Assembly (NCBI RefSeq): GCF_030704535.1
Contig: NC_081808.1
Location: 19,962,501 to 20,026,500, forward strand
Source of the DNA: Vitis vinifera
Taxonomy: Eukaryota > Streptophyta > Magnoliopsida > Vitales > Vitaceae
Direction: 5' to 3'
DNA length: 64,000 nucleotides
Shown here piece after piece: positions 1 to 54,396 of the stretch. A program made the translations under genes and the position numbers. The notes below the pieces were generated by a model. That model made no database searches. It was given only the letters and a program-made list of their open reading frames with translations, and was not told where the DNA came from. Positions within the stretch are counted from its first letter, which is position 1; each line of letters begins with the position of its first letter.

Positions 1-558
1 CCTTGAAACTTGCTACCATGAATCCAAGGACCGACTTCAACCTGGATACCTTCTTGGGGAAAGAGGTGAGAGCCAAAATTTTGCCTCCTCATTGTTTTCA
101 GGGCTTTCCTTTCTTTCTCTACCCAACGTGGCCTCATGACTGACTTGTGCCTTTAAAAAAATTATGCGATGAAGTTTCCTGCTTACGTCGCAGCCGGTTT
201 TCCAACAGCGGCTGCTTCATCAGAAATGGCCAATTTGCCCTTCCTTCAGTTTCAGCCAGTGCCGCAGGGAATCACAAGCTGTGAGCTACATATGCCAATA
301 GACCCCCCTCAATCTGCTCTTCAGATGACCACAAGCTCTTCCACATCTGTCCCTGAGATGTTCACCAACTCAACGTCCTTCTCTGTAATTTCTGTTACAC
401 CCAATGGCTTCTTTCATTCTAGTAACATCTTTGATTGATGCTATGCTGTCGTATGATGATTCTATCTCATGCTTATCATCTTTGCATTGCAGCAAGTACA
501 ACCCTTCACCACTTGGGACACTGATTTACAAAGTCTATACACTGGGGAGTTTCAGTGA
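1..558 (+). CDS. bHLH transcription factor of the bHLH48/bHLH60 type, C-terminal part (5' end outside window)
   Basis: Three terminal coding segments can be joined in phase: 3-65, 175-384 and 493-558 (stop TGA). The first encodes LKLATMNPRTDFNLDTFLGK, the usual tail of a plant bHLH domain (helix 2 plus the following NPRxDFN stretch). The second contains MANLPFLQFQPV, and the last reads QPFTTWDTDLQSLY. Both match the C-terminal signature of the bHLH48/60 group, where NLAYLQFNPVQ and ATWDADLQNLY-like segments follow the DNA-binding domain. These proteins act in the nucleus as dimerising DNA-binding regulators, some linked to gibberellin and flowering. Donors are at 66 and 385, acceptors end at 174 and 492. 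The acceptor at 174 is the least certain boundary, chosen for phase. The basic region and most of helix 1 lie upstream of the window, so specificity cannot be judged. Confidence 0.82.
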
Positions 559-2206
559 GGAAGATCAACTACTTTTTCAGCCCCACTTTCCACCACCACC
601 CATGAAGACAGACACTCCCTCATACATGGGTGTTAAATCTCAAGGACCACTAGCATGACAGGTTTCTGCAAGCACCTGATTTTTGGATAATAATCAACAA
701 CAATCTCAGAGGAATTATGTACAAAATTCAAGCGATTCTGATTACATTCAAGTTCATGATCTTTTCTACATGTATACTGGGAAAAAGTTCAAAAAAAAAA
801 AAAAAAAAGAAGGTTTTTCCTCTCTTTTGCATGGTATAATGCTTATGGTTATGCTTTGTGAGGGTCGAGGGGTTTGACGAGGAAAGAAGGGAGAGGGAGA
901 GGGAGAGGGAGATGGAGATGGAGAAACTGCAAAGCTAAAAGCATTGTGGGGGGCAACCAAGGTGGAGAGGTGTGAATGAAAGCATAAAGCATTAATGGAT
1001 GGGCCTAATGGCGGCTTCTGACTTGGGAGCCCGTCTTAAATTGCATTACAGAGCAGCCATTCCTTAGGCATTATGGATGAGAATTCAGAATTCCCAAGAT
1101 GTAAATTGGACAAGCCTTATCGTCTCTTTGATCCCCACCCACCAGCGTGTTTCGGCCCACCAAGGTTAGCTCGTCATCTTTGGAGGGCTTATAAAAGTTT
1201 AAAATTGGTAAAATTAAAATTTTCTCAGTCACTTATACACGTACAAGATAAGTGATTCGAAAACGTCACTAGAATTATAAAATTGATTGCAAGTGGGTAT
1301 TTGGGTAATGTATCAACGATTATGACATGTTAGTTGCCAATGAAGCTACTACTTGGGCTGGGCTGGTTACCCATAACTGCTCCCTACCAGTTATCAAACA
1401 AAATAATTTAGGTCTATAAGATATAAGTCATGAAATGAAAATTTAAAACCTAACAAGGTATTTGTTTTTTAGCATTTTATTGTAAGTAATTTACTTTTAA
1501 ATTTTAAGTTGTTTGTTTGTTTGTTTTTTTATTATTTTTTATTTTTTATAATTTAATAAAAAAAATCAAAATATTTATTTTTTTTAAATGAAAAAAAGCA
1601 ACATATTAATTTTTATTTTTATTTTTTAAATATATAATGAAAATAAAATATTATAAAATCAAATAACCTAATACTTAATACTATTAAGTACTATTTAGAA
1701 TTAAGTAAAGAAAAAAAAAACATCGCTTATTTAATAAAACTTAATATAACTTAAGTTGACTTTAAATTAAATTATGTTTAAGTTGTTAACATAAAATTTA
1801 TTACTTAATTTTTATTTTAAGTATTAGCATTGTTTGATAAACTTAACTTAAAAAACTTATTCTAAATCATCAAATTAATATATTTATCTGTATAAATTAT
1901 AATTATGGTAGAAAAAGTTAAGTAACAATGAAAGTCTTGAAATAGTAAAGAAGATCGTTAAAATAATTATAATAAATAAAGGTAAAAAAATTATAAAATA
2001 AAGATATGAACTTATAGTTGTTTTTAGTTATTATTTAAAATTGTTGTAACTTTAAATTATATAATTAAATTATTTTACTAAACATACTTAATTTACTTAA
2101 TAACTTAATTCATTTTAAGTTATTAAATTACCAAACATGACTAAGTTTTCACTTGCTTAAAAAAAAACTATCCGAAGAAGAGAACCAGATATTTTATACA
2201 TACATC

Positions 2207-10190: not shown

Positions 10191-12105
10191 AGGTTGACCC
10201 AAAAGCCTTTCCCATTTTTTAACACGCTTTGGAGGTTGGGGGTACGGCTGGAGATCTTTCCCTCAGCTCACACAGCTTGCAATTCATTTGATTTCTCTTT
10301 TTATAATAGTACTATGTTAATATTATTATTTGTGGCAAGTAGATTTGGAGAAGTCCATGTTTCTCATTTATTATTCGTTGATGACACTGGTTTTCTATGA
10401 GGTCTCTTAGGATCACATAACTTATTTATATTCATTGCTTATGTGGTTTAAGGTCGTTTCAAGGTTAAAGATTATTTTGGAAAAAAAAAATGAGTTAATT
10501 TTGGTCAGATGGGTAGAGAATGTTGATGATTTAGTGATTGAGCTTGGGTGTAGGGGTTCCTTCTTATTTGGGACTTCTTTTGGATGTTCCATTTAACTCT
10601 ACAAGGATTTGGGATGGAGTAGAAGAGCAATTCTGTAAAAGATTGTCTAGGTGGAAGTGATAATATATTTTCAAATGAGGGAAGGTAACTTTGCTTTGGA
10701 GTACCTTATTTAGTTTGCCTATTTATTTTATGTCTTTATGTTGTATGTCATGAGTTGTTCGGTTGAGGTTATAACAAATTTAGAGGAACTTTCTTTAAGG
10801 TGGTAGGGCTTTGGAGTGTAAACCTCATCTTGTTAAATAGATGGTTGTTTGTTGTGACAAGAGGAAAGGAGGCTTTGGAGTTAAAAGTCTTGCACTTCTT
10901 AATAAGACACTTCTTTACAAGTGGAGTTGACATTTTGCTATTGAAAGAGGGGCCTTTTGGAACCAGGTTATTCGTAGTAAGTATGGAGAAGTAAGAAAGG
11001 GATGGGTAACTCGAGGTAAGAGAGGGGTATTGGGTTGAGTTGTGAAAAGCAATAAGGAATGATTGAAATATTGTGAGATCTAAGTGTTCGTTTGTGGTGG
11101 GTAATGGGTGGATGGTACTTTTTTGGAAGGATAGGTGATATGGGGATATCCTTTTGTATGTGTTGTTTTCTTCATTTTTTGCCTTATCGATCTCTAAGGA
11201 TGCGTGAGTGGTGGATGTTTGGAATTCTTCCGCTAAAGGGGGAGAGAGAGCGGAGGGGGGTAGGCAAGGCGAGGGTTGGAATCCTTGTTTTTTTAGAACT
11301 TTTAATGATTGAGAGGTGGATTATGTGGTGAGATTTTTGACATTGTTTGCAAGGGCAACGAGTTTGTCAGGATGTGGAAGATTCTTTGATATGGTAAGTG
11401 ACAAAAAGTGGCAAGTTTACAATGAAGTCCCTTTATCATGTTTTAGAACTAGACTTAGTTGGATTTTTTCCAATTGATGGAATTTGGATTTCATGGGTCC
11501 AACCAAAAATTAGTTTTTTGCATAGGAGGCAATGTGGGGTAAAGTTCCAACCGTGGATCAACTGTAGAGATGAGATTGATCTTTAACAAATCAATGTTTT
11601 TTGTGTCTTTGATATGAAGAATCTATTGATCATTTGTTGCTCAATTGTGAGATGATAGGGGTTTTTATAAGAGTTAATTTTTGTACTTTTTGGGATGTTT
11701 TTAGTGTTTTTTTTGCCAATTAAAGATACTTTGTTGAGTTGGTATGATTTTTTTGTGGGTAAGAAGTAAAGGAAGTTCGACAAACAATCTTTTTATATTT
11801 GTTTTGGATAGTGTGGAAGACCAAGAATAATATTGCCTTATGTAACGAGGTTTTTTTTATTCAAAGACTGAAAAGGGAGTTTGTTTGTTTTATGTGGTCT
11901 AAGGCTAAGTTATTTGTTGATAAGCACCATTGACTTTAGTTATATGTTTTGAATGGTTGGATGCTAATCGAGTTTGTTAAAGTTTTTTCTGTACTTTTGT
12001 AGTCTGACTCTTGGTGGCAAATGAGGTTTATTATCTTATATATTTGGGGTTGCTTTTTGCAACTCTTTTCTTTAATTTAATTTAATTGTTTATTTATCAA
12101 AAATA
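10190..12105 (+). mobile_element. Decayed LINE (L1-type non-LTR retrotransposon), 5'-truncated
   Basis: The DNA reads as the second half of a plant L1-like reverse transcriptase broken into several frames. HVSHLLFVDDT at about 10352-10386 is the catalytic F(A/V)DD block. At about 10864-11016 the reading is KGGFGVKSLALLNKTLLYKW, then one in-frame stop, then HFAIERGAFWNQVIRSKYGE; this is the standard L1 segment after the polymerase core. Further right, about 11490-11650 matches the zf-RVT region (WVQPKISF... then, in another frame, a TNQCFLCL-like stretch and SIDHLLLNCE). At least several frameshifts and stops are present, so it is inactive. There is no endonuclease domain to the left. The 3' end is placed near 12105, after TTTATTTATCAAAAATAA, a tail typical of plant L1 copies. 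No target duplication was identified. Confidence 0.85.
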
Positions 12106-26315: not shown

Positions 26316-28660
26316 TAGTGAAATAAGATCTAGAGACAACAACTCTGGTTGTGGTACAAAAATATAAATTAAAAAGAATGAAACATTAGGGACTTTCAGG
26401 CAGGATTTTCATTTCATTCACCAGGAAAGGAAACCAAGAAAATGGTTACATACATTGAACTTGGACTAGTTCACCTGCCCCACCAACCACTTCATTCCTC
26501 TGGACGCAAGTTGAAGTCAACATTTAGAATATTAGCATTTTACAAATGTTAAAAAGATGCAGGATGATATATAATCAAAGATCTTTCAACCGGTTGGTGG
26601 GCATATATTTGTACAATTTTGACTCAACGCCCCTGACCAACCCAAGATGAACATCCATATAAGGTATCTTCTATTATGTTCAGCTTTTGGCTCTAAAAAG
26701 TGGAGAGCAAGAAACTGCATGTTAAGCCCAAAACGGGCTGATTTGGCTCTTAATTTTGGACACAAAAGTGGGCAACAGCTGAAATGTTTTTGCAGCCCAA
26801 TTGAAATGGACATTATTTGGTATTGAGGATTGTGACAAAAGGAGAATTTTGGGAGTAACCCACACAGTATAAATTATCTTTTACCTAGGCAAGTCCCGAA
26901 CCAAGCAATTTTTTACAAGCAAGACCCAACCTCAAGGTCAGAGTTTTGACCATGAAATAGCAGAAAATAAACTTGCAGATAAACAACCACATACATTGGC
27001 AACCCACCAACAAGCCCCTATTTACTGGGGTGCACAGCCTAAAGGAAGATGGTAACTTTCAGTCCTGGGAACTGACAAATTGCAAGGGCATGAGATGGCC
27101 ATTCAAGGATCAAGTTGGACCTCCCTCAGCAATGATGTTGCAGTTCTCCGAGCCAAAACTCCTTAATTATCCTACACATTACTGACTTAGAAGGTTGAGG
27201 ATGTATGGCTACCACCACACTGTTGTCTAAAGCAGGCTCCTACACCTGAATTTTCAGCACCTGACCAGAGCTTGTTGCTGGCATATCATCTTATGTTGAG
27301 GACCAAATTTGCCATTACAAATATATCGATGTGCATTAAAATTAAACAAGAAGAATGCCAAATTGTTACAAACTGAGAAATGGGAGGCTGGTTAACATAG
27401 GATATAGCACTATTCTTTATTTTCACTAAAATCCTGTTAACTTGTTTACAAGTCCTTGAGGTGGAAAATTCACATACCAACTTCAATCTCAAAGCCTCAA
27501 GTTCATTTGATGACTGTTAAAAATAAAATGCAGCTCAACAAACATCTTGTGACACATTCTGTACCACTAAAGCATAGACAATGCAAGATGCTCAAACAAC
27601 CTAAAAACAAGATGCAGACACTAACTCCAACGAGATGTTTCCATGCTTAATAATCAATATAGACCACCATGTAAGAACTGTCAATTCCACACAAACACTG
27701 GCATAGTAATAAATGAAAGAAACACCAACAAAATTAAGGAGGCTTCCTATGATTTGCTCTTTCTAAATTGTCTCAAAAACAACCATTGGGTAAAACAACA
27801 AGAACTGTGCATGTATAAAGTTAGTTCAGAAACCTGTAGCACAGAAGCACATGTGCAAAGACGTATAGAAAGATAATTGATGATTCAAATCTATCATAAT
27901 ATGGAAAAAGTGGAAAACAGGAAAATTCATCCTCTTCCAGCATTTCCCTCCACTTTCTCAGCAACCAGAACAACACAAAACCTGAAATTTAAAAGAAAAA
28001 ACAAAATCTTTTCTCCTCCTTCCCTGCATTTGTCCAGCAACCAAACAGAATTTCCAGTTTCTCAGCAGTCAAAATAACACAAAAATGAAGAAGTTAAAAA
28101 AAAAATCTTTTTTCTCTCACTTTCTGGGCAACCAAACAAAAATCCCCCACTTCTTCAGCAACCAAAACATCAAAAAAGAAAAATGCAATAAAAAATCAAA
28201 TTTATTCTCTTCCTTTCCTCTACTTTCAAGAGGGCCAAACAAAGATCCCCAATTTTTTCAGTAACCAAAACCCCCAAAAACCAAAAGATAGAAAAAGGAG
28301 GAAAAAATAAAACAAAAAATCGTTAATCTGCTCTTCCATTCTTCATCTTTCCCGGCAACCAAATCAAAGATTGATAAAAAGGAATAATCGAAGCAAAGTT
28401 CAATATGCCTTAACGAATTTTCGAAGCCCTTTACTGTCAGTGAGATTGACTAACCTAAGATGATGAGAGCGATAGGGGCCAGCGAGATGTAGGGAGAGAC
28501 CGAGATTTGAGGGGAACAAGAAAAGGGTCTGAAGATTGAGAGAGAGAAAGAGAGTGATTGGGGACTCCTTTGTGGCTATCCCAACCAGGAGGGGTTCACT
28601 CCCACTCCGGGTCGAATGACTTCCATTAGAGAATAGCATAGATCCAGTGGGCACTATATA
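26316..28660 (-). promoter_or_regulatory. Probable leader exon and long first intron of the adenylyltransferase gene
   Basis: On the minus strand a pyrimidine-rich leader-like exon (CTCTCTTTCTCTCTC..., about 28650-28455) ends with ATCTTAG before GTTAGTC. The next plausible acceptor in front of the start codon ends near 26330 (TTGTCTCTAG). That gives a ~2.1-kb first intron in the 5' UTR. It contains a cluster of eight related phrases at about 27943-28363 (see findings). The nearest to the donor reads TTTGATTTGGTTGCCGGGAA and overlaps the published intron-mediated-enhancement consensus TTNGATYTG. Assignment of this leader to the adenylyltransferase gene is inferred from orientation and splice signals only. 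Open frames here (for example 28400-28654) are best read as UTR. Confidence 0.45.
27943..28363 (-). repeat. Cluster of about eight degenerate TTTGGTTGCYGAGAAA phrases
   Basis: Reading the minus strand, the phrase (T)TTGGTTGCTGAGAAA or a close variant appears near 28363, 28266, 28232, 28168, 28133, 28066, 28044 and 27975. It is usually followed by RTGGAGGAAA-like or GAAAG-rich sequence and a T/A tract. Spacing is irregular, about 25-100 bp, so this is a diverged tandem expansion rather than a clean array. Confidence 0.65.
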
Positions 28661-45298: not shown

Positions 45299-46709
45299 TC
45301 AGTCTCTAGCTAACCGGCTGCCACTTGCAGAAGGCTTCTTCCCAGTGTACCTCTGTCAAATGAAACAAAGATGATACAATTTGAGAAGCAGATTTTAAGA
45401 ACAAATAAAAATATAAGGAGATTGAATGATCAGAGCAAGTCCAACTATGATCAACAAGAATAACACTATTGAGACAGCAACACTAATCATGATAACCTTT
45501 TGATTCCTAAACTAATCATACTCACCATCTTTCCCATGTCAAATGGGACGTATTTGTATTTGATCATGTGTAGAATTTGACGCTTCATCGTGAGGACAAA
45601 CAGAAATATCCAGTAGCATAACAATATGGGCCAGAAAACAGGTACATCCAACATAGAGAAGAAGGTCAATCCGAATGCAACAACAAAAGCCTTGGTAATG
45701 GAATACCTGAAAAAGCCGAAAACAAATATGTGATCATCACATCAAAATGCAGAATCTATAAGCAACAGGGTGATTCTCCTGTTTATCATATCCTGGAGCT
45801 CAAAAGTGGGAGAGGATTTAGGTAAAAATATTAGTTCTTCAAGCTGGGTAGACTCTATAAAAATGATTTGCTTGGAATGTAGTCCAAATACATAAGACAT
45901 GCCAATTAAGCCCTTAAGCCCCATTAGAATGCAGCACCTCTTGGGGAAAGGGGACAAATAAGTTTCGTGATCTTTATCAGGAATACTCCAAGAAAAAACA
46001 GACTAGCAAGCAATTTGCAGAGTCACTACTTGGCAGCTTATGAACTCCCCAAAATTCTAGTTTGACCAGGTTTCATTTCAATCACTGGAAACCCCATCAA
46101 AACCCCTAAAATGCAAGATCACACGATGGAAAATCCGAAAGTTCACAGTTGTTTCTTGAGAATTTTAGGCATTGATGATAACACTAGATCTCAGGTGGCT
46201 ACTAAATAATAATAATAGAATTTCCCAAGAAACTAAGGATGACAATGCAATCTTAAGCAGAGAAAAGGCAAAGAATTATTCTCCTAGCATACAACCCCAA
46301 TCAAACCCATAATAAAGATGTAAAGAACATAATGGGAAAATGAGTAAATATTGCATTACCAGAACTTAAATTCAGGGAGGCGTCTAACGAAAGGCTTAAA
46401 CTCGTCGGAATCTTTCGTGGGCAGCGAAGCCCCATCCAAAGCCTCCAGTTCAGGATCAACCTTGGGCGACAGAAAGCCGATCAAGAGATTCAAAACATAG
46501 ATTCCCAACCCATAGGAGATCACATAAAACCCTTGAACATAGTAAACTCGCAAAAAGTAAATTGATGCTGCCACTAGTGTTCCTAGCCACCTCTCAGCTA
46601 TATGTGGTGCAGATCTATCCAAATAGTACTGAAAAGCCCTCGAAAAGTCGCTCTTCCATTTGGCCAGCGGCGCCGCAGCCAAGGCGAAATCGCCTCCGTT
46701 TTCCTCCAT
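45299..46709 (-). CDS. RER1: RER1 protein (retrieval receptor for ER membrane proteins)
   Basis: Three exons on the minus strand, 46709-46360, 45706-45526 and 45352-45299, join in phase to 194 residues. The family signature [16 protein letters not shown] is present, followed by [11 protein letters not shown] and [36 protein letters not shown]. Four membrane segments are expected, in two hairpins (about residues 45-90 and 125-170). RER1 sits in the early Golgi and returns escaped ER membrane proteins via COPI vesicles. The start MEENGGDF is the first ATG of the frame; upstream codons are open but lack an ATG. The C-terminus [20 protein letters not shown] is basic and cytosolic, as in relatives. 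The leader contains an intron with its donor at 47170. Confidence 0.95.
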
Positions 46710-47230
46710 GTGAAGTGAGATTTCACTCTGATTTTCTGACAAGTTCCATCAAAAACCCATTTATAACAACAATAACAATAAAGAGTGACGCATTGATACA
46801 AACTAGGGCAAGAAACAAAAGGCAGAAACGTAAGGAAGAAGAAAGAGACGAGAAGAAAAGGGTCAATCAAGAAACACAACCCAGAAACATCCCCAGAGAA
46901 GAGAAACGTTTCTGTTCGTTCGGTTGCCAAGAAAATACGAGCAAAAAGAAAGGAACCATAAGTCCTGCTGTTAAAATTTTCATCGACCGTGACACTATCA
47001 AATCAAGCCACACACATCTATTCCGCTTACCTGAGGACTCATCACGAAACCAGAAAACAGCACAAGATGTAAGATAAAAACAAAAAAAAGAAAAAAAAAA
47101 AAAAGGTAAAAATGTTCTTTTCTTTACGTTCCTTTTCTCGGAAACCAAACAGAGTGTGAGAAGATGGTACCTGTTTCTTGGTCCCACGAAACTCAAATCT
47201 TGAATTGCAGGGCTCTCCTTAAAACACAGA
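46710..47230 (-). promoter_or_regulatory. Leader intron of RER1
   Basis: On the minus strand a leader exon (down from about 47230) ends with GAAACAG at 47171, before GTACCATC. Twenty bases into this intron stands GTTTGGTTTCCGAGAAAAGG (47150-47131), one of the recurring first-intron phrases. A related phrase lies on the opposite strand at about 46919-46935 (GGTTGCCAAGAAAATAC). The intron ends before the coding start; the exact acceptor was not fixed. Confidence 0.5.
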
Positions 47231-48372
47231 TAAACCCCTGGATAATAATGGAGGGATAGAAAGTTTGAGGATTGAAGAATCAAACTAAAAGCAATCAAGT
47301 CTGGAAAATGGGTTTGTTTCTCAAGGTTAGGATCGGAATCAAGGAACACTTGAACATCCACTCAAGGTCGCTCCTCCCATCTTGTACCACCGCTACACGT
47401 GGCGAGCGGTTATCTTCATATGTTGATTCCAAGGGTAATATTGTCATTTCTTTATCATAGAACGTCACTTTGGCTTTTCCTTTTTACTTTTTAGAGCTGG
47501 GCTTGGTTGTTCTAGTGCATGCCTCCACCGTCCCTCGGAGCCCTTCCAATGGGAGGCCCACTTGAGCTGTAACAGCCTTTTAGATCTGGGCTTAACATTG
47601 AAGCAGGCCCAAAGAGCCCATTCAACTTTATCATCACTCAAAATATCATTAATATTAGGTTTTGTTTGTAATCAGGATGACAAAGGCGGATCCGAGTATA
47701 ACTTTCTCCATCTGGTCGCGAATATATATAATATTAAATAAAAAATATTTTAATTGTTTCTTAAGAGGTAAAAATTTTTAAAACAAAATATTATTATTTT
47801 TTTAGAACAGATATCTTGGTTTATAGAGAAAATGATTTTATAGCCATTATTGTTTTTTTCGCATTTATGATTTTGACTTTTAATTAAAATAAGAAAAAAA
47901 AATTTAAAATTGGATTTACGATTTATTTGATAGTGATTTTAGAAAGCGTTTTTAATATTTTTAATATTTAAAAAAATTTATCATTCAAATGTTAAAAATA
48001 TTAGAAACGTTTTTTAAAATCATTTTAAATACATTTTTAATAAACATTTTAAAATTTTTTTAAAATTTCTTACAATGTTTTCTAAGAAAAAAACTTTGAA
48101 AGGTAATCATTTTTAAAATACTTCAATTTGAGTGGAAAGAATTCGAAAGCAAAAGGATTCTTAATACTTTAACATGGCACCAATAACAAATCAAATGACA
48201 CATTGATGATGATGACAGATTTGTACAAACATCTAACATGATTCTAAACCCAATAAATGCATATACTTTCACTTGAATAAGTAATTATTCTTGTCAATTA
48301 CAACGTGGGCCGCCGCCCCAATACACTAGGCACAACCTATTCTCCATTTTATCCTTAATGCACCATTGGAAG
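47231..48372. other. RER1 upstream region with an AT-rich MITE
   Basis: The RER1 promoter should lie at the left, though no TATA box was recognised. An AT-rich inverted-repeat element occupies about 47930-48040 and is annotated separately. The hAT-type element begins directly at the right edge, after its 8-bp target duplication at 48365-48372. Confidence 0.5.
47930..48040. mobile_element. AT-rich MITE, TTTGATANTGATTTTAGAAA family
   Basis: Left end ATTTGATAGTGATTTTAGAA, then AGCGTTTTTAATATTTTTAA. The right half mirrors it (AAATATTAGAAACGTTTTTT, then AAAATCATTTTAAAT), forming an imperfect inverted repeat with a short non-coding centre. The same unit occurs at about 63163-63279, and fragments lie at 29750-30000. 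Confidence 0.6.
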
Positions 48373-49670
48373 TAGGAATGGCAACGGGCGGGTTTGGGAC
48401 GGGTCACCCCTATCCCATTCCCGTCCCAAGTAGATTTAGTTATTTCCCAACCCGTCCCAAACCCGGGACGGGGCGGGGCGGGGCATTCCCGTCCCCGTTA
48501 TAGGGTTAAATTTAAAATCCCATCCCCGGCCCGTCCCGACCCGGGTATGTGTTGTCGGGGCGGGGCGGGGCGGGGCGGGCCACCCTAAAACCTCGACCAC
48601 TGCAAATCAAACACAACACACCAAGAAAAACGAAACATCAGCGCGCCAAATCGCAGACACGATCGGGCTGCCAAGAAACCGCATAAAAAATTAAGGAAAA
48701 CCTTCCAGCAAAATATCGTGAGAGCATTGACGTTTCCTTCATAATTTTCCAAAATTTTCTCGCCAACCAAACGGAAAAGAACAAAATTAGAAACTACACC
48801 TGATTCAGTGTCCATTACCGAGAACCGGAGTGAGCGACAGAATCTGGATTTTTTGTTCTCTGAAATTCGAAAAAATACAAATCGTGATAACGAGATTGCA
48901 CCTGTGTCTCGTTGTATTGCGATGAATGGTGAGGATCCAATATATATAGAGAAAGAGATGGGAAGGGAAGGGAAGGATCTGGTGCCTGTCAGCTTACCGT
49001 ATGAGACTCCAAGACAAAATGGACTCGTAATGGACCTGATTGAAGTCCCCCTCTACAAACACTGATCTTAAATCTAAAAGTGCAAACACAGCCCCAATTT
49101 GCCTTACAATAATCCAACCCACAAGACCAAAGAAACAGATTCAAAACCCTAAATAGCAACCCGAAAACTAATAGAAAAAAAAAATCCTTCAATAATCTGA
49201 AACTGGAAATGGAAAAATCCTAAATTTTGTATCTCATTCCCGAATTAGAAACGGAATACAACACCAAATCAAGGCATCATTCAACCAAAAAATCTCATCG
49301 GTTTGTAGATACGTGAAGATAACAGGTGTGATTCTTGATTTCTTGTGAATATGGGATAAACAAGGATGAATCGAGACTGATGGAGGAAAAACCCTAGCGT
49401 TGACAGGAACGAGAACTGAGACGGAGAGAAGAAGACCTAAAATGAGGATAGGAAACTAATATTTATAAGTGGGGGGTAAAGTGGTAATTTCATATTCGGG
49501 GCGGGGCGGGTCAAATTATAACTACACCCGTCCCCGCCCCGAACCCGATTCGGGTTTTTTAAAAAAACCCCCAAACCCGGCCCATCCCCGATTGGCATGT
49601 TCCTATACCCGTCCCAATAGGGGCGGGTCGGGGCGGGTGACCCGGGAAACCCGAGAATTTGCCATTCCTA
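48373..49670. mobile_element. Non-autonomous hAT-type DNA transposon carrying host-like 5' gene sequence (Pack-type)
   Basis: The element is bounded by perfect 12-bp terminal inverted repeats, TAGGAATGGCAA and TTGCCATTCCTA. It is flanked on both sides by the same 8 bp, ATTGGAAG (48365-48372 and 49671-49678). An 8-bp duplication and TA-starting short ends are hallmarks of the hAT superfamily. Subterminal regions (48373-48590 and 49497-49670) are packed with CGGGGCGGGG-type repeats facing each other. No transposase is encoded. The ~0.9-kb centre (48591-49496) is of different composition. On the minus strand it reads like host gene 5' ends: a TATATATA box (48941-48948), a leader-like exon ending TTCTCG at 48819, GTAATGG donor, TTTGGTTGGCGAGAAAA at 48771-48755, and TTTGATTTGCAG as acceptor just inside the left subterminal block. 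Identical target copies suggest a recent insertion. Confidence 0.85.
48591..49496 (-). other. Cargo of the hAT element: captured promoter, leader exon and first-intron sequence
   Basis: Read on the minus strand, the right part (49440 to about 49000) contains AGGTCTTCTTCTCTCCGTCT and GCTAGGGTTTTTCC, typical of plant 5' leaders. The left part has a TATA-like box, an exon-like piece, a consensus donor at 48818, a ~215-bp intron with the first-intron phrase, and an acceptor near 48603. This may be one gene end or two joined fragments. The source gene is not recognisable because hardly any coding sequence is included. Any transcript would run leftwards out of the element towards RER1. Confidence 0.55.
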
Positions 49671-49810
49671 ATTGGAAGCAATTCCCCAAGTCAAAAACAA
49701 GAAAGACATTTTATTCCAGAATATTACAATCGATCTATACATGGGAAAGCGTAACCCTGTAACCAAACACCATTTATGGAATGTTCCTTTGGAGTTTGGA
49801 CCACTTGTCG

Positions 49811-50032: not shown

Positions 50033-50398
50033 CATTCGTAATTGTCGTGCACAAATCAAAGCTCTACTTCACGCGAGTGGTTCTCTGTGAGTTTCCCTTA
50101 TCCCTTTTCCATGGTTTCTAACAGTTTCGCCGTCGTTTGGTTGATGAGAAAATGGAGGAAAAACTGCAGGAAAACCCAATATTTTTACACCCGTTTCTCA
50201 TCAACCAAGCGGGGCGTTACTTGTCTTACGGACTTTATTTCATCTCAATACGGACTTTAATGGGTTTGATCTATCCTTTATGAAACGGCATTGATGATAT
50301 ATTTATGACTTTGTTGACTGCGGGTGCGAATTGGTTGTTTTAATTCTCGTATTTTTATGATTTTCATGTCTGTGTCTCGTTCTGGATGGTTAAATTCG

Positions 50399-51035: not shown

Positions 51036-54000
51036 ATGGCTAACCATGATGGAGAAATAAGCTCCAAAACTTCGGGATTCCCTCATCATGTAGTTCTCAA
51101 TGAAAGGATCCTTTCTTCTATGTCACGGAGATCTATTGCTGCTCATCCTTGGCATGACTTAGAGATTGGTACAGTTTCTGTGCGCCCAATATTATTTACT
51201 TCTTGGTCTCCAATGAATGGTATTTGTTTGTTTCACATCAAACTTATTTAATCGATGCGCAAGTAATCCTGGCCCGATATATTTACTGGTCCCCATGAAT
51301 AGAATTCATTTGCTCTACACCAAATTTATGGTTTTTTTTCTCCTCCTAGATAGATTGGTTATAGTTGTATGCCCGCTGTGTTCTTTTAATCCCAATTATT
51401 TTTGCCTTTTTATCTATTGGTCTAGTTGGAACCATCAAACCTTTTTCCTTTTGGGATATTATATGTTTTGGCATTTATGCCTGTTATTTTAACCTATGCA
51501 GGACCGGGTGCTCCATCAGTTTTCAATTGCGTAAGTTTTAATCTCACCTGCTTCCAAGTTTGGGTATCTGTGAATGGATTGTTGAAGAGGGTAGAGGCAA
51601 TCTTATGGTACCAGGTCATATTGCTGACAGTTCCTCTCTATGATGGAAGAGAGATGTGAGACCTCAAAGGAATTATAGACCTTGACAGTCATCCAATTAG
51701 GAGGCCATGTCATAAGTTGTTTTTAGTAGATGAAAGTATGTTTCCTCTGACAAATTTAGGTGGCATTCCTAATTCTTAACATGTAATTTTTGGGCAGGTA
51801 GTTGAAATTGGCAAGGGCAGCAAGGTTAAGTATGAGCTTGACAAAGCAAGTGGCTTGATAAAGGTGCCATTCTCTTGTTCTTTTCATCTTTTTACTATTT
51901 TTTGTTTATTATAGTTTTTTTTTTTTTCAATCCTTGGAGATTTAATTCAACATGACTTAAGCGTGTTTTCTCTATTGCTAACTAGCTTAGTATTTTCTTA
52001 ATTCGGGTAGGATTACTTTTCTTATGAACTGGTAATGACTAGGTAGAACTTATAGCTAAGGATGTAATATGTTTACTCAATACTTGTAATGCTTTCACTT
52101 GAATTTTAAGACATATTTTTGGCATCTTCTAGACTTAAATAAAACTTGAGCTCTTTGTGGATGAAGTTCAGCAGGGCCAAAGTTGCACTAGTCTATCTTT
52201 TTCCCATTGAAACAGCATTAAGCTTTTACAATTTCATGAGTGTGTGAACTAATAGATATTATACAGCATGATGAGTTCTTTAGCTGTTTTTTAAGGACGT
52301 GATGTATAAACAGCATCTTTGACATGCTGTGTTTATGATAAGAACAAGAACCTGCTAGTGAACAGATCCCACCATCAAGATCTCTATGCATTACTACTTG
52401 TTTGAGTGCTTGTGGCCTTCAGATCTATTTACCTTGTAACTTGTTGAGTATACATGGAATTAGTTCAGAGAAAGATGCATATATTAGATGTGGACACAAG
52501 GAATTAGTTCAGAGAAAGATGCGTATATTAGATGCTTACAACTTCAAATTAATATTTGTTTTCCAGAGTTAGGTCTACATTTTGTATGGTGGAGACAATT
52601 CCCAACTATCTGTGATTCTCAAGAATTTTGAACACTTCCAGTATAATAGGTTATGGGCCTTATCTGTCCTGATATTCCATTATATTTACCAACCTCAAAA
52701 CCACCAGCCTTGAATTTTCCTAAATTAACTTAAAATTTCTTGTTTTTTATTTATTTATTTATTTATTATTACAATTTGTTGCTCAAATTTCCTCCAAGAT
52801 GGAATTATCACCATGAATTAGAACTGCATCTCCATCTTGAAGTGTTCCTTCATCATTGGATTGGACTTTTTAATGTTGAGGCCATATTTACTGCCCTTTA
52901 TTTTCATGTTTTTTTGCTTATATTGCTGTTATAGTGTTGCTAGATTATATCTGATTTGTGTATGCACTCAATATATAAGATAGCTAAAGAATGGAGTTCT
53001 CCAAAAATAGGTTGATCGTGTTCTTTACTCATCAGTTGTTTATCCACATAACTATGGTTTCATCCCTCGAACCATCTGTGAAGACAGCGATCCTATGGAT
53101 GTCCTGATTCTAATGCAGGTAGTGTCATTTGACATACCATCTTACCACAATCATGATACATTACATCTTTTTTATTTTTCTAATTAAATCTTATAAAAAT
53201 TCATCAATTCGCCCTCTCGTGTAGGAGCCGGTACTGCCTGGTTCTTTTCTTCGTGCTCGTGCGATTGGATTAATGCCTATGATTGATCAGGTAAAAAAAA
53301 TTTCTTTCTCTGTCTAACTTTTTATTCTTGACATCCAGAATCTTCTTTTGAGTAAACACTATTACCCAATCAAAGGGTTGTTTAGGAAAAAAATTCATGG
53401 TAGCCAAGGATGAACTAGAACAAAGTTCCACTTTATTACATTGGGACCTGAGATCCTATTCCCAAGGTCATTTATTGTCACACACATCTATATAAAAAGC
53501 AGGCTAGGTTGATTAGGTTATCTGCATTCTGGTTCAGTGTGAGGTTCAAGTCCCAACCTTTAATTGAAGGGTAAAATATCATATCCTTATCCTAGGTATT
53601 GATATATTCACTTTGTGTCTCCTTCCCTCATGAAATTTCTCACTTTATACCCTGTTCAATCCCAATCAGTATTCATTTATGTTGGGATCAGGTTTGAAAT
53701 GGTCAGTTGATTTTTTATTATGTGAAACAAAAGTTCATTAAGGGTAATAGATCATGTTGGCATCATTCTTCAAGTGGTGTTTCTTTATGGAAATTCCCAA
53801 ACAGTCTCTATATATTTAAATTAGACGTGTTTTTTCTTGATCATATGTTTCAAGACACCATTGAAAGTGTGATTACCAGGTGATACACAAATCCTTTTGC
53901 AGGGTGAAAAGGATGACAAAATAATAGCAGTGTGTGCTGATGACCCTGAGTTCCGCCACTACAAAGACATCAAAGAGATTCCCCCACATCGCCTTGCTGA

Positions 54001-54396
54001 GATCCGCCGCTTCTTTGAGGACTGTATCCATTCACATGCCTTTACTCCTTTTATATATAACTTGTTGCTAGTCATAGACTCACAATTATTTAATACTATA
54101 CATAAATTGTTTTCCTAAGTGCTACCAAATTGACATGTTTTTTGGTGAATTTACATTATCTATTACTGGATAACCTTCACTCCCCATGAATGACAAAGAC
54201 AAGAAGAACGAAAACAAAGAAGTTAACGTGAACGACTTTCTTCCAGCTGATTCTGCCATTGAAGCCATCAAGTACTCAATGTGAGTAGAAGTGTTTCCTT
54301 TCTGCAGCCTATTCTAGCCATTAACTTTCTTACATGGATGGTTGCTATTGCAGGGATCTGTATGCTTCCTACATTGTTGAGAGCTTGAGGCAGTGA
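51036..54396 (+). CDS. PPA: Soluble inorganic pyrophosphatase (family I)
   Basis: Eight exons, 51036-51168, 51502-51530, 51798-51863, 53011-53118, 53225-53290, 53903-54023, 54199-54280 and 54354-54396, join in phase to 215 residues, the normal size of cytosolic plant enzymes. It hydrolyses pyrophosphate with Mg2+, pulling biosynthetic reactions forward. The family signature DSDPMDV is at residues 101-107. Other blocks are [71 protein letters not shown] and [37 protein letters not shown]. The variable N-terminal ~20 residues ([15 protein letters not shown]) show no transit peptide. The second coding exon is only 29 bp. A leader intron with a recent tandem duplication precedes the start. Confidence 0.96.
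52456..52543. repeat. 44-bp near-perfect tandem repeat in a pyrophosphatase intron
   Basis: GGAATTAGTTCAGAGAAAGA starts at 52456 and again at 52500, with nearly identical continuation (TGCATATATTAGATG versus TGCGTATATTAGATG). The unit lies in the 1.15-kb intron between exons 3 and 4. Confidence 0.85.

Follow-up and report, generated by a model that had tools for sequence, protein, structure and literature searches.

A single-copy hAT element of grapevine that probably acquired the start of a thioesterase-like host gene

That hAT elements capture gene sequence has been published before, for grapevine as well, and the element at positions 48373-49670 of the window analysed here is a single further example. 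In grapevine, transduplication is described as common in all superfamilies of cut-and-paste transposons, and the account of the Hatvine-6 family gives its members TIRs and transposase sequence in common, the remainder being often unique and often matching host introns or exons (Benjak et al. 2008, PMC2528002). Maize Ds2 elements are presented as deletion derivatives that keep about 200 bp of hAT arm and contain filler copied from elsewhere; gene fragments occur in two Ds2 and nine Ds-l4 elements, one of them an exon-intron-exon piece with its donor gene on another chromosome, and errors in the repair of excision breaks are a suggestion discussed there for maize Ds (Du et al. 2011, PMC3260210). 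Among animal Pack-TIRs, the frog element hAT-N8_XT carries a 291-bp piece of the 5' UTR of CAPSL, and single-copy captures are explained by gap filling with microhomology, the data given there agreeing better with internal breaks of the element than with its excision (Tan et al. 2021, PMC8277862). The Pack-hATs of plants are characterised as non-autonomous hAT elements that contain host coding DNA and are flanked by an 8-bp TSD (Gisby and Catoni 2022, PMC8903248).

The window is the whole stretch of 64,000 nucleotides that was analysed, C4:19962501-20026500 of a 495.6-Mb Vitis vinifera assembly in 21 contigs, and this assembly was the genome searched throughout. Like Hatvine-6, the element in the window belongs to the hAT superfamily and carries host gene sequence; unlike the members of that family, which are described as sharing a transposase (PMC2528002), it contains none, and the lengths published for Hatvine-6 (TIR 13 and TSD 9 in Table 2 of that paper, against 12 and 8 here) make it an inexact fit as far as the published description goes. 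The combination of hAT arms, filler and a captured gene fragment is also found in maize Ds2 and Ds-l4, which represent a different hAT family in a different host, whereas the piece captured here is a gene start with a TATA-like box and a start codon. Single-copy capture is shared with the Pack-TIRs of PMC8277862, where a hAT with a 5'-UTR piece has already been described; the hosts there are animals, however, and the frog case is multicopy, unlike our single-copy element. With plant Pack-hATs the element shares being a non-autonomous hAT with an 8-bp TSD and host coding DNA, although the Pack-hAT passages of PMC8903248 concern rice and maize, and its main text is without the words Vitis, grape or promoter.

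We propose, with a probability of roughly 0.85, that this locus is a single-copy Pack-type hAT, that is, an internally deleted derivative of a large hAT whose middle would have given way to a 42-bp filler and a copied thioesterase-gene 5' end, most likely via gap repair. The features on which this reading is based are collected in Table 1.

Table 1. Features of the element and its flanks (window positions; element positions where given)
Feature	Window position	Element position	Strand	Remarks
Non-autonomous hAT element	48373-49670			1,298 bp; 12-bp TIRs and exact 8-bp TSD
Left TSD ATTGGAAG	48365-48372		strandless	identical copy at other end
Left TIR TAGGAATGGCAA	48373-48384		+	12 bp
Left arm of hAT family	48373-48579			94.7% to left end of 10,838-bp element C15:1881941-1892778
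Captured host segment (cargo)	48581-49009	209-637	-	98.1% to C15:22687261-22687689; 8 mismatches in 429 bp
First 19 nt of exon 2	48581-48599		-	3 mismatches to parent
Intron 1, GTGTAG ... TTTGATTTGCAG	48600-48799		-	200 bp
Start codon and coding part of exon 1, ATG GAC ACT GAA TCA G (MDTES)	48800-48815		-	exon boundary predicted from the parent's reading frame
TATA-like box TATATATA	48941-48948		-	identical in parent; putative function
Filler	49010-49051	638-679	strandless	42 bp; final six bases TCCCCC common to right arm
Right arm of hAT family	49046-49670	674-1298		95% to 10.8-kb element
Right TIR TTGCCATTCCTA	49659-49670		-	12 bp; perfect inverse of left TIR
Right TSD ATTGGAAG	49671-49678		strandless	identical copy at other end

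Both hallmarks of the hAT superfamily, perfect 12-bp TIRs and an exact 8-bp TSD, are present, and in this an earlier, sequence-only reading of the window was correct: the TIRs start and finish exactly at 48373 and 49670, the 8-bp flanks are identical, and the rich subterminal blocks that it had described are G+C-rich blocks of the CGGGGCGGGG type close to both ends. The G+C content is 64% in the left arm, 42% in the cargo, 36% at 49052-49492 and 58% at 49493-49670, with 30% and 40% in the 1-kb flanks. The claimed lack of a transposase likewise held: apart from one base (element position 208) the element consists of arm, cargo or filler throughout, the arms align solely to two parts of the 10.8-kb relative (1-206 and 10200-10838) that do not reach into its transposase-type ORFs, and the longest stop-to-stop ORF (155 aa, 48585-49052, minus strand) is a read-through of the cargo.

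Searching the genome with the whole element gave 60 listed matches after scoring of the best 40 of 484 first-look candidates, and the copy counts that follow are lower bounds. Among the listed matches besides the element itself, those to the left arm fall within element positions 1-206 and those to the right arm take up the whole or a portion of 674-1298; a single match, on C15 at 98%, lies over 209-637. Twenty-five family loci, forming part of the listed right-arm matches, were compared. Both ends and a TSD (eight exact, one with one mismatch and one with two) are present in ten of them; an eleventh complete locus is the 10.8-kb relative, assembled by joining L029 with L049, which has the exact TSD CATCCTGT, a single change in its left TIR, and matches to both element arms. 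No matching left end was found in the stretches examined at the other 14, L034 having a left arm but a non-matching flank, and these loci served just to compare the right arm and to see that the cargo is absent within those stretches. The search for further copies with the same ends, which the earlier reading had proposed, bears on the cargo as follows: it was not found in the sequence compared of any of the 25 other family loci, the element being incomplete there for 14 of the 25. The ten complete copies of small size fall into two sets, one with seven members of 1.26-1.52 kb and the other with three of 0.93-0.95 kb; interiors are common to the members of a set, and none has the cargo.

Longer members of the family have coding potential. 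A 433-aa frame is present in seven of the ten longer loci listed for stop-to-stop ORFs (the exceptions being L033, L034 and L042), and a second ORF of 243-289 aa in nine. The ORFs of L032 match hAT-like_RNase-H (5.1e-32) and Dimer_Tnp_hAT (5.8e-32), with zf-BED at 19.7 bits, below the cutoff of 20.6; the 433-aa and 255-aa minus-strand ORFs of the 10.8-kb relative sit in sequence 98% identical to L032. Large members contain in addition an ORF of 182-191 aa (L032 6023-6568 and L029 6019-6591), coiled-coil-looking by eye and, in L032, with a weak, sub-cutoff match to CREPT, which may be another captured host piece; if it is, this hAT family captures repeatedly. L029 on C15 and L030 on C5 are 99.3% identical over 7.5 kb with differing right-hand flanking 8-mers, which suggests that a large and possibly autonomous element has moved recently.

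A search with the interior of the element (query 48572-49060, E up to 0.001, 11 of 11 candidates scored) returned the element itself, a match on C15, and nine places sharing just about 50 bases, mostly filler. The only full matches to the cargo in this search are the element and the C15 locus, the latter at E 1.7e-211 (98% over 429 bp). The host gene sequence therefore has an identifiable parent, as the earlier reading had supposed, and its central claim of a Pack-type hAT element with captured 5' gene sequence is upheld by a parent lying on another contig and by the absence of the cargo from the sequence compared of the other family loci. Its extent requires revision: the cargo had been taken to be the whole central ~0.9 kb, which is ruled out since the right part of that interior is the ordinary family arm.

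Read from 5' to 3', the cargo comprises about 60 bp before the TATA-like box, the box, a leader, the ATG with four codons and one base, intron 1 and 19 nt of exon 2. The gene-start features named in the sequence-only reading (TATA box, leader, intron and TTTGATTTGCAG acceptor on the minus strand) are all there, with adjusted borders. Its splice donor at 48818 is ruled out by the reading frame of the parent gene, which places the 5' splice site 19 bp away at 48799, where GTGTAG directly follows ATGGACACTGAATCAG; the final base of the intron, for which an acceptor at ~48603 had been given, is 48600. The exon that had been called leader-like does contain a leader, but because the donor is at 48799 it also holds the ATG start codon. 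Since an intron is present, the captured copy was made from DNA rather than mRNA. The phrase TTTGGTTG..GAGAAAA has three exact occurrences (28110-28136, minus; 48755-48771, minus; 50136-50152, plus; 0.01 expected from shuffles), the middle one inside the captured intron and the same in the parent gene; the source of that copy is thus the host intron, not the transposon.

On the minus strand of the parent locus (L009) lie TATATATA, the leader, ATGGACACTGAATCAG, the intron from GTGTAG to TTTGATTTGCAG, and then further exons, which we joined by eye at GT/AG borders. The resulting partial protein (199 aa) matches cNMP_binding (E 2.1e-10), 4HBT_3, the acyl-CoA thioesterase N-terminal domain (E 1.4e-5), and part of TIGR00189, tesB acyl-CoA thioesterase II (3e-16, 59.7 bits, below the full-length cutoff of 292.85). 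Three weaker NCBIfam matches are all below cutoff, namely PRK10526 (acyl-CoA thioesterase II), family 2B encapsulin and the regulator YeiL; the encapsulin and YeiL matches fall on the nucleotide-binding part. By these domain matches, the parent is the 5' end of a predicted cNMP-binding, acyl-CoA thioesterase II-like gene, the protein of which presumably resembles Arabidopsis thioesterases. In the 3' direction the gene extends far past the 429 bp in common, and in the 5' direction the locus goes on without further element match; because the locus continues beyond the shared segment on both sides, the direction of transfer was from gene to element.

Of the eight differences between cargo and parent, three are C in the parent and T in the element, CpG being the context of two of them, and another two look like the reverse, a loss of CpG in the parent. 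Three cluster in the exon-2 piece, within 17 bases adjoining the left arm (window 48581-48597 against L009 4762-4778), the element having C each time; this cluster could mark a second, tiny template switch.

Element positions 629-679, which include the filler, match nine other genomic places at 92-96%. Since eight of these precede the end of a listed right-arm match on the same strand, by about 7-10.5 kb, the filler probably derives from large members of the same hAT family; the ninth place, C15:20913509, has no right arm nearby among the matches listed. In element coordinates the left arm stops at 207 and the cargo occupies 209-637; the filler passes into the right arm by way of TCCCCC. This last microhomology amounts to 6 bp, and when breakpoints in the 10.8-kb element and in a single filler place (L055) were paired at random, 256 of 100,000 pairs had at least six bases in common. 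The left-arm/cargo and cargo/filler junctions have at most ~1 bp of clear microhomology, making one junction of the three striking. Divergence of the cargo from its parent (8/429 substitutions, 1.9%) is close to that of the right arm from the 10.8-kb relative (11/617, 1.8%, over element positions 680-1298), whereas the left arm is more divergent from this relative (10/206), and the element that actually served as donor may therefore be a different copy.

Under the proposed origin by gap repair, transposase would have cut the parent element out and the cell would have begun to refill the excision gap by copying a template; the copying strand would then have switched templates at short sequence matches, passing from the left arm to the thioesterase gene, to the transposon-borne stretch and to the right arm, or in the reverse order. 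We favour template-switching gap repair because the transposase region has been lost, the insert is in two parts, and microhomology is present. The near-complete loss of the interior, with breakpoints towards the ends, fits the excision version by an expectation expressed in PMC8277862 itself, and, as repair of this kind acts where the element has been cut out, the cargo could have been assembled in situ. An origin by insertion and re-mobilisation, in which two neighbouring family copies flanking the thioesterase start moved as one unit and later lost inner sequence, has in its favour that it is the model preferred for plant Pack-TYPE elements by Gisby and Catoni (2022, PMC8903248); we consider it unlikely for this locus, where there is a single left and a single right arm, the edges of the cargo meet arm and filler without inner hAT ends, and no further element match was found in the 9.9 kb examined around the parent at E 1e-8. 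There is next to no chance that the central sequence is ordinary hAT-family sequence with a fortuitous likeness to a gene start. The right half of the element is indeed ordinary family sequence, but for 48581-49009 such a status is refuted by the absence of element positions 209-637 from the compared sequence of the 25 family loci and by the strength of the match, at 98% over 429 bp, to one gene.

The sequence-only reading had gone further, in suggesting that the element would be a mobile expression module, and we put this forward as a hypothesis only. The cargo points along the minus strand towards an ORF for Rer1 (46356-46748, minus strand; PF03248, E 6.6e-40), whose apparent ATG at 46709 is ~1.66 kb from the element end; on the other side, the plus strand carries an inorganic pyrophosphatase exon (53873-54118), and an ORF near 51.0 kb resembles a first pyrophosphatase exon. 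A working module, in which the captured promoter, leader and intron would drive transcripts, for instance towards Rer1 ~1.7 kb downstream, could call on this same-strand arrangement, on a TATA-like box, start codon and intron ends that are the same as those of the parent, and on a chimeric ORF of 59 aa that splicing yields on paper and that stops at 48436, within the left arm. We nevertheless judge it very improbable, as just ~60 bp upstream of the TATA-like box were captured and only one element was found to have the cargo; the T-for-C differences, two of them at CpG, are such as methylated, silent DNA might show, an argument that is weak given the two others that look like parental CpG loss. 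It seems equally far-fetched that the putative portable 5' module of promoter, start codon and splice-competent intron 1 gives Rer1 an alternative start or produces a chimeric transcript beginning with MDTES. The word mobile in particular found no support: outside its parent the cargo occurs in one element only by the fully scored interior search, with no copies moved or amplified along with the element. PMC8277862 nevertheless includes single-copy captures among the Pack-TIRs, so movement is required for that word and not for membership of the class.

This locus represents a clean, apparently young case of a hAT element acquiring host DNA, in which a source is matched for every base but one and the cargo is precisely the start of a gene. 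As such, the element is suited to serve as a test case for capture by gap repair and for whether captured promoters work.
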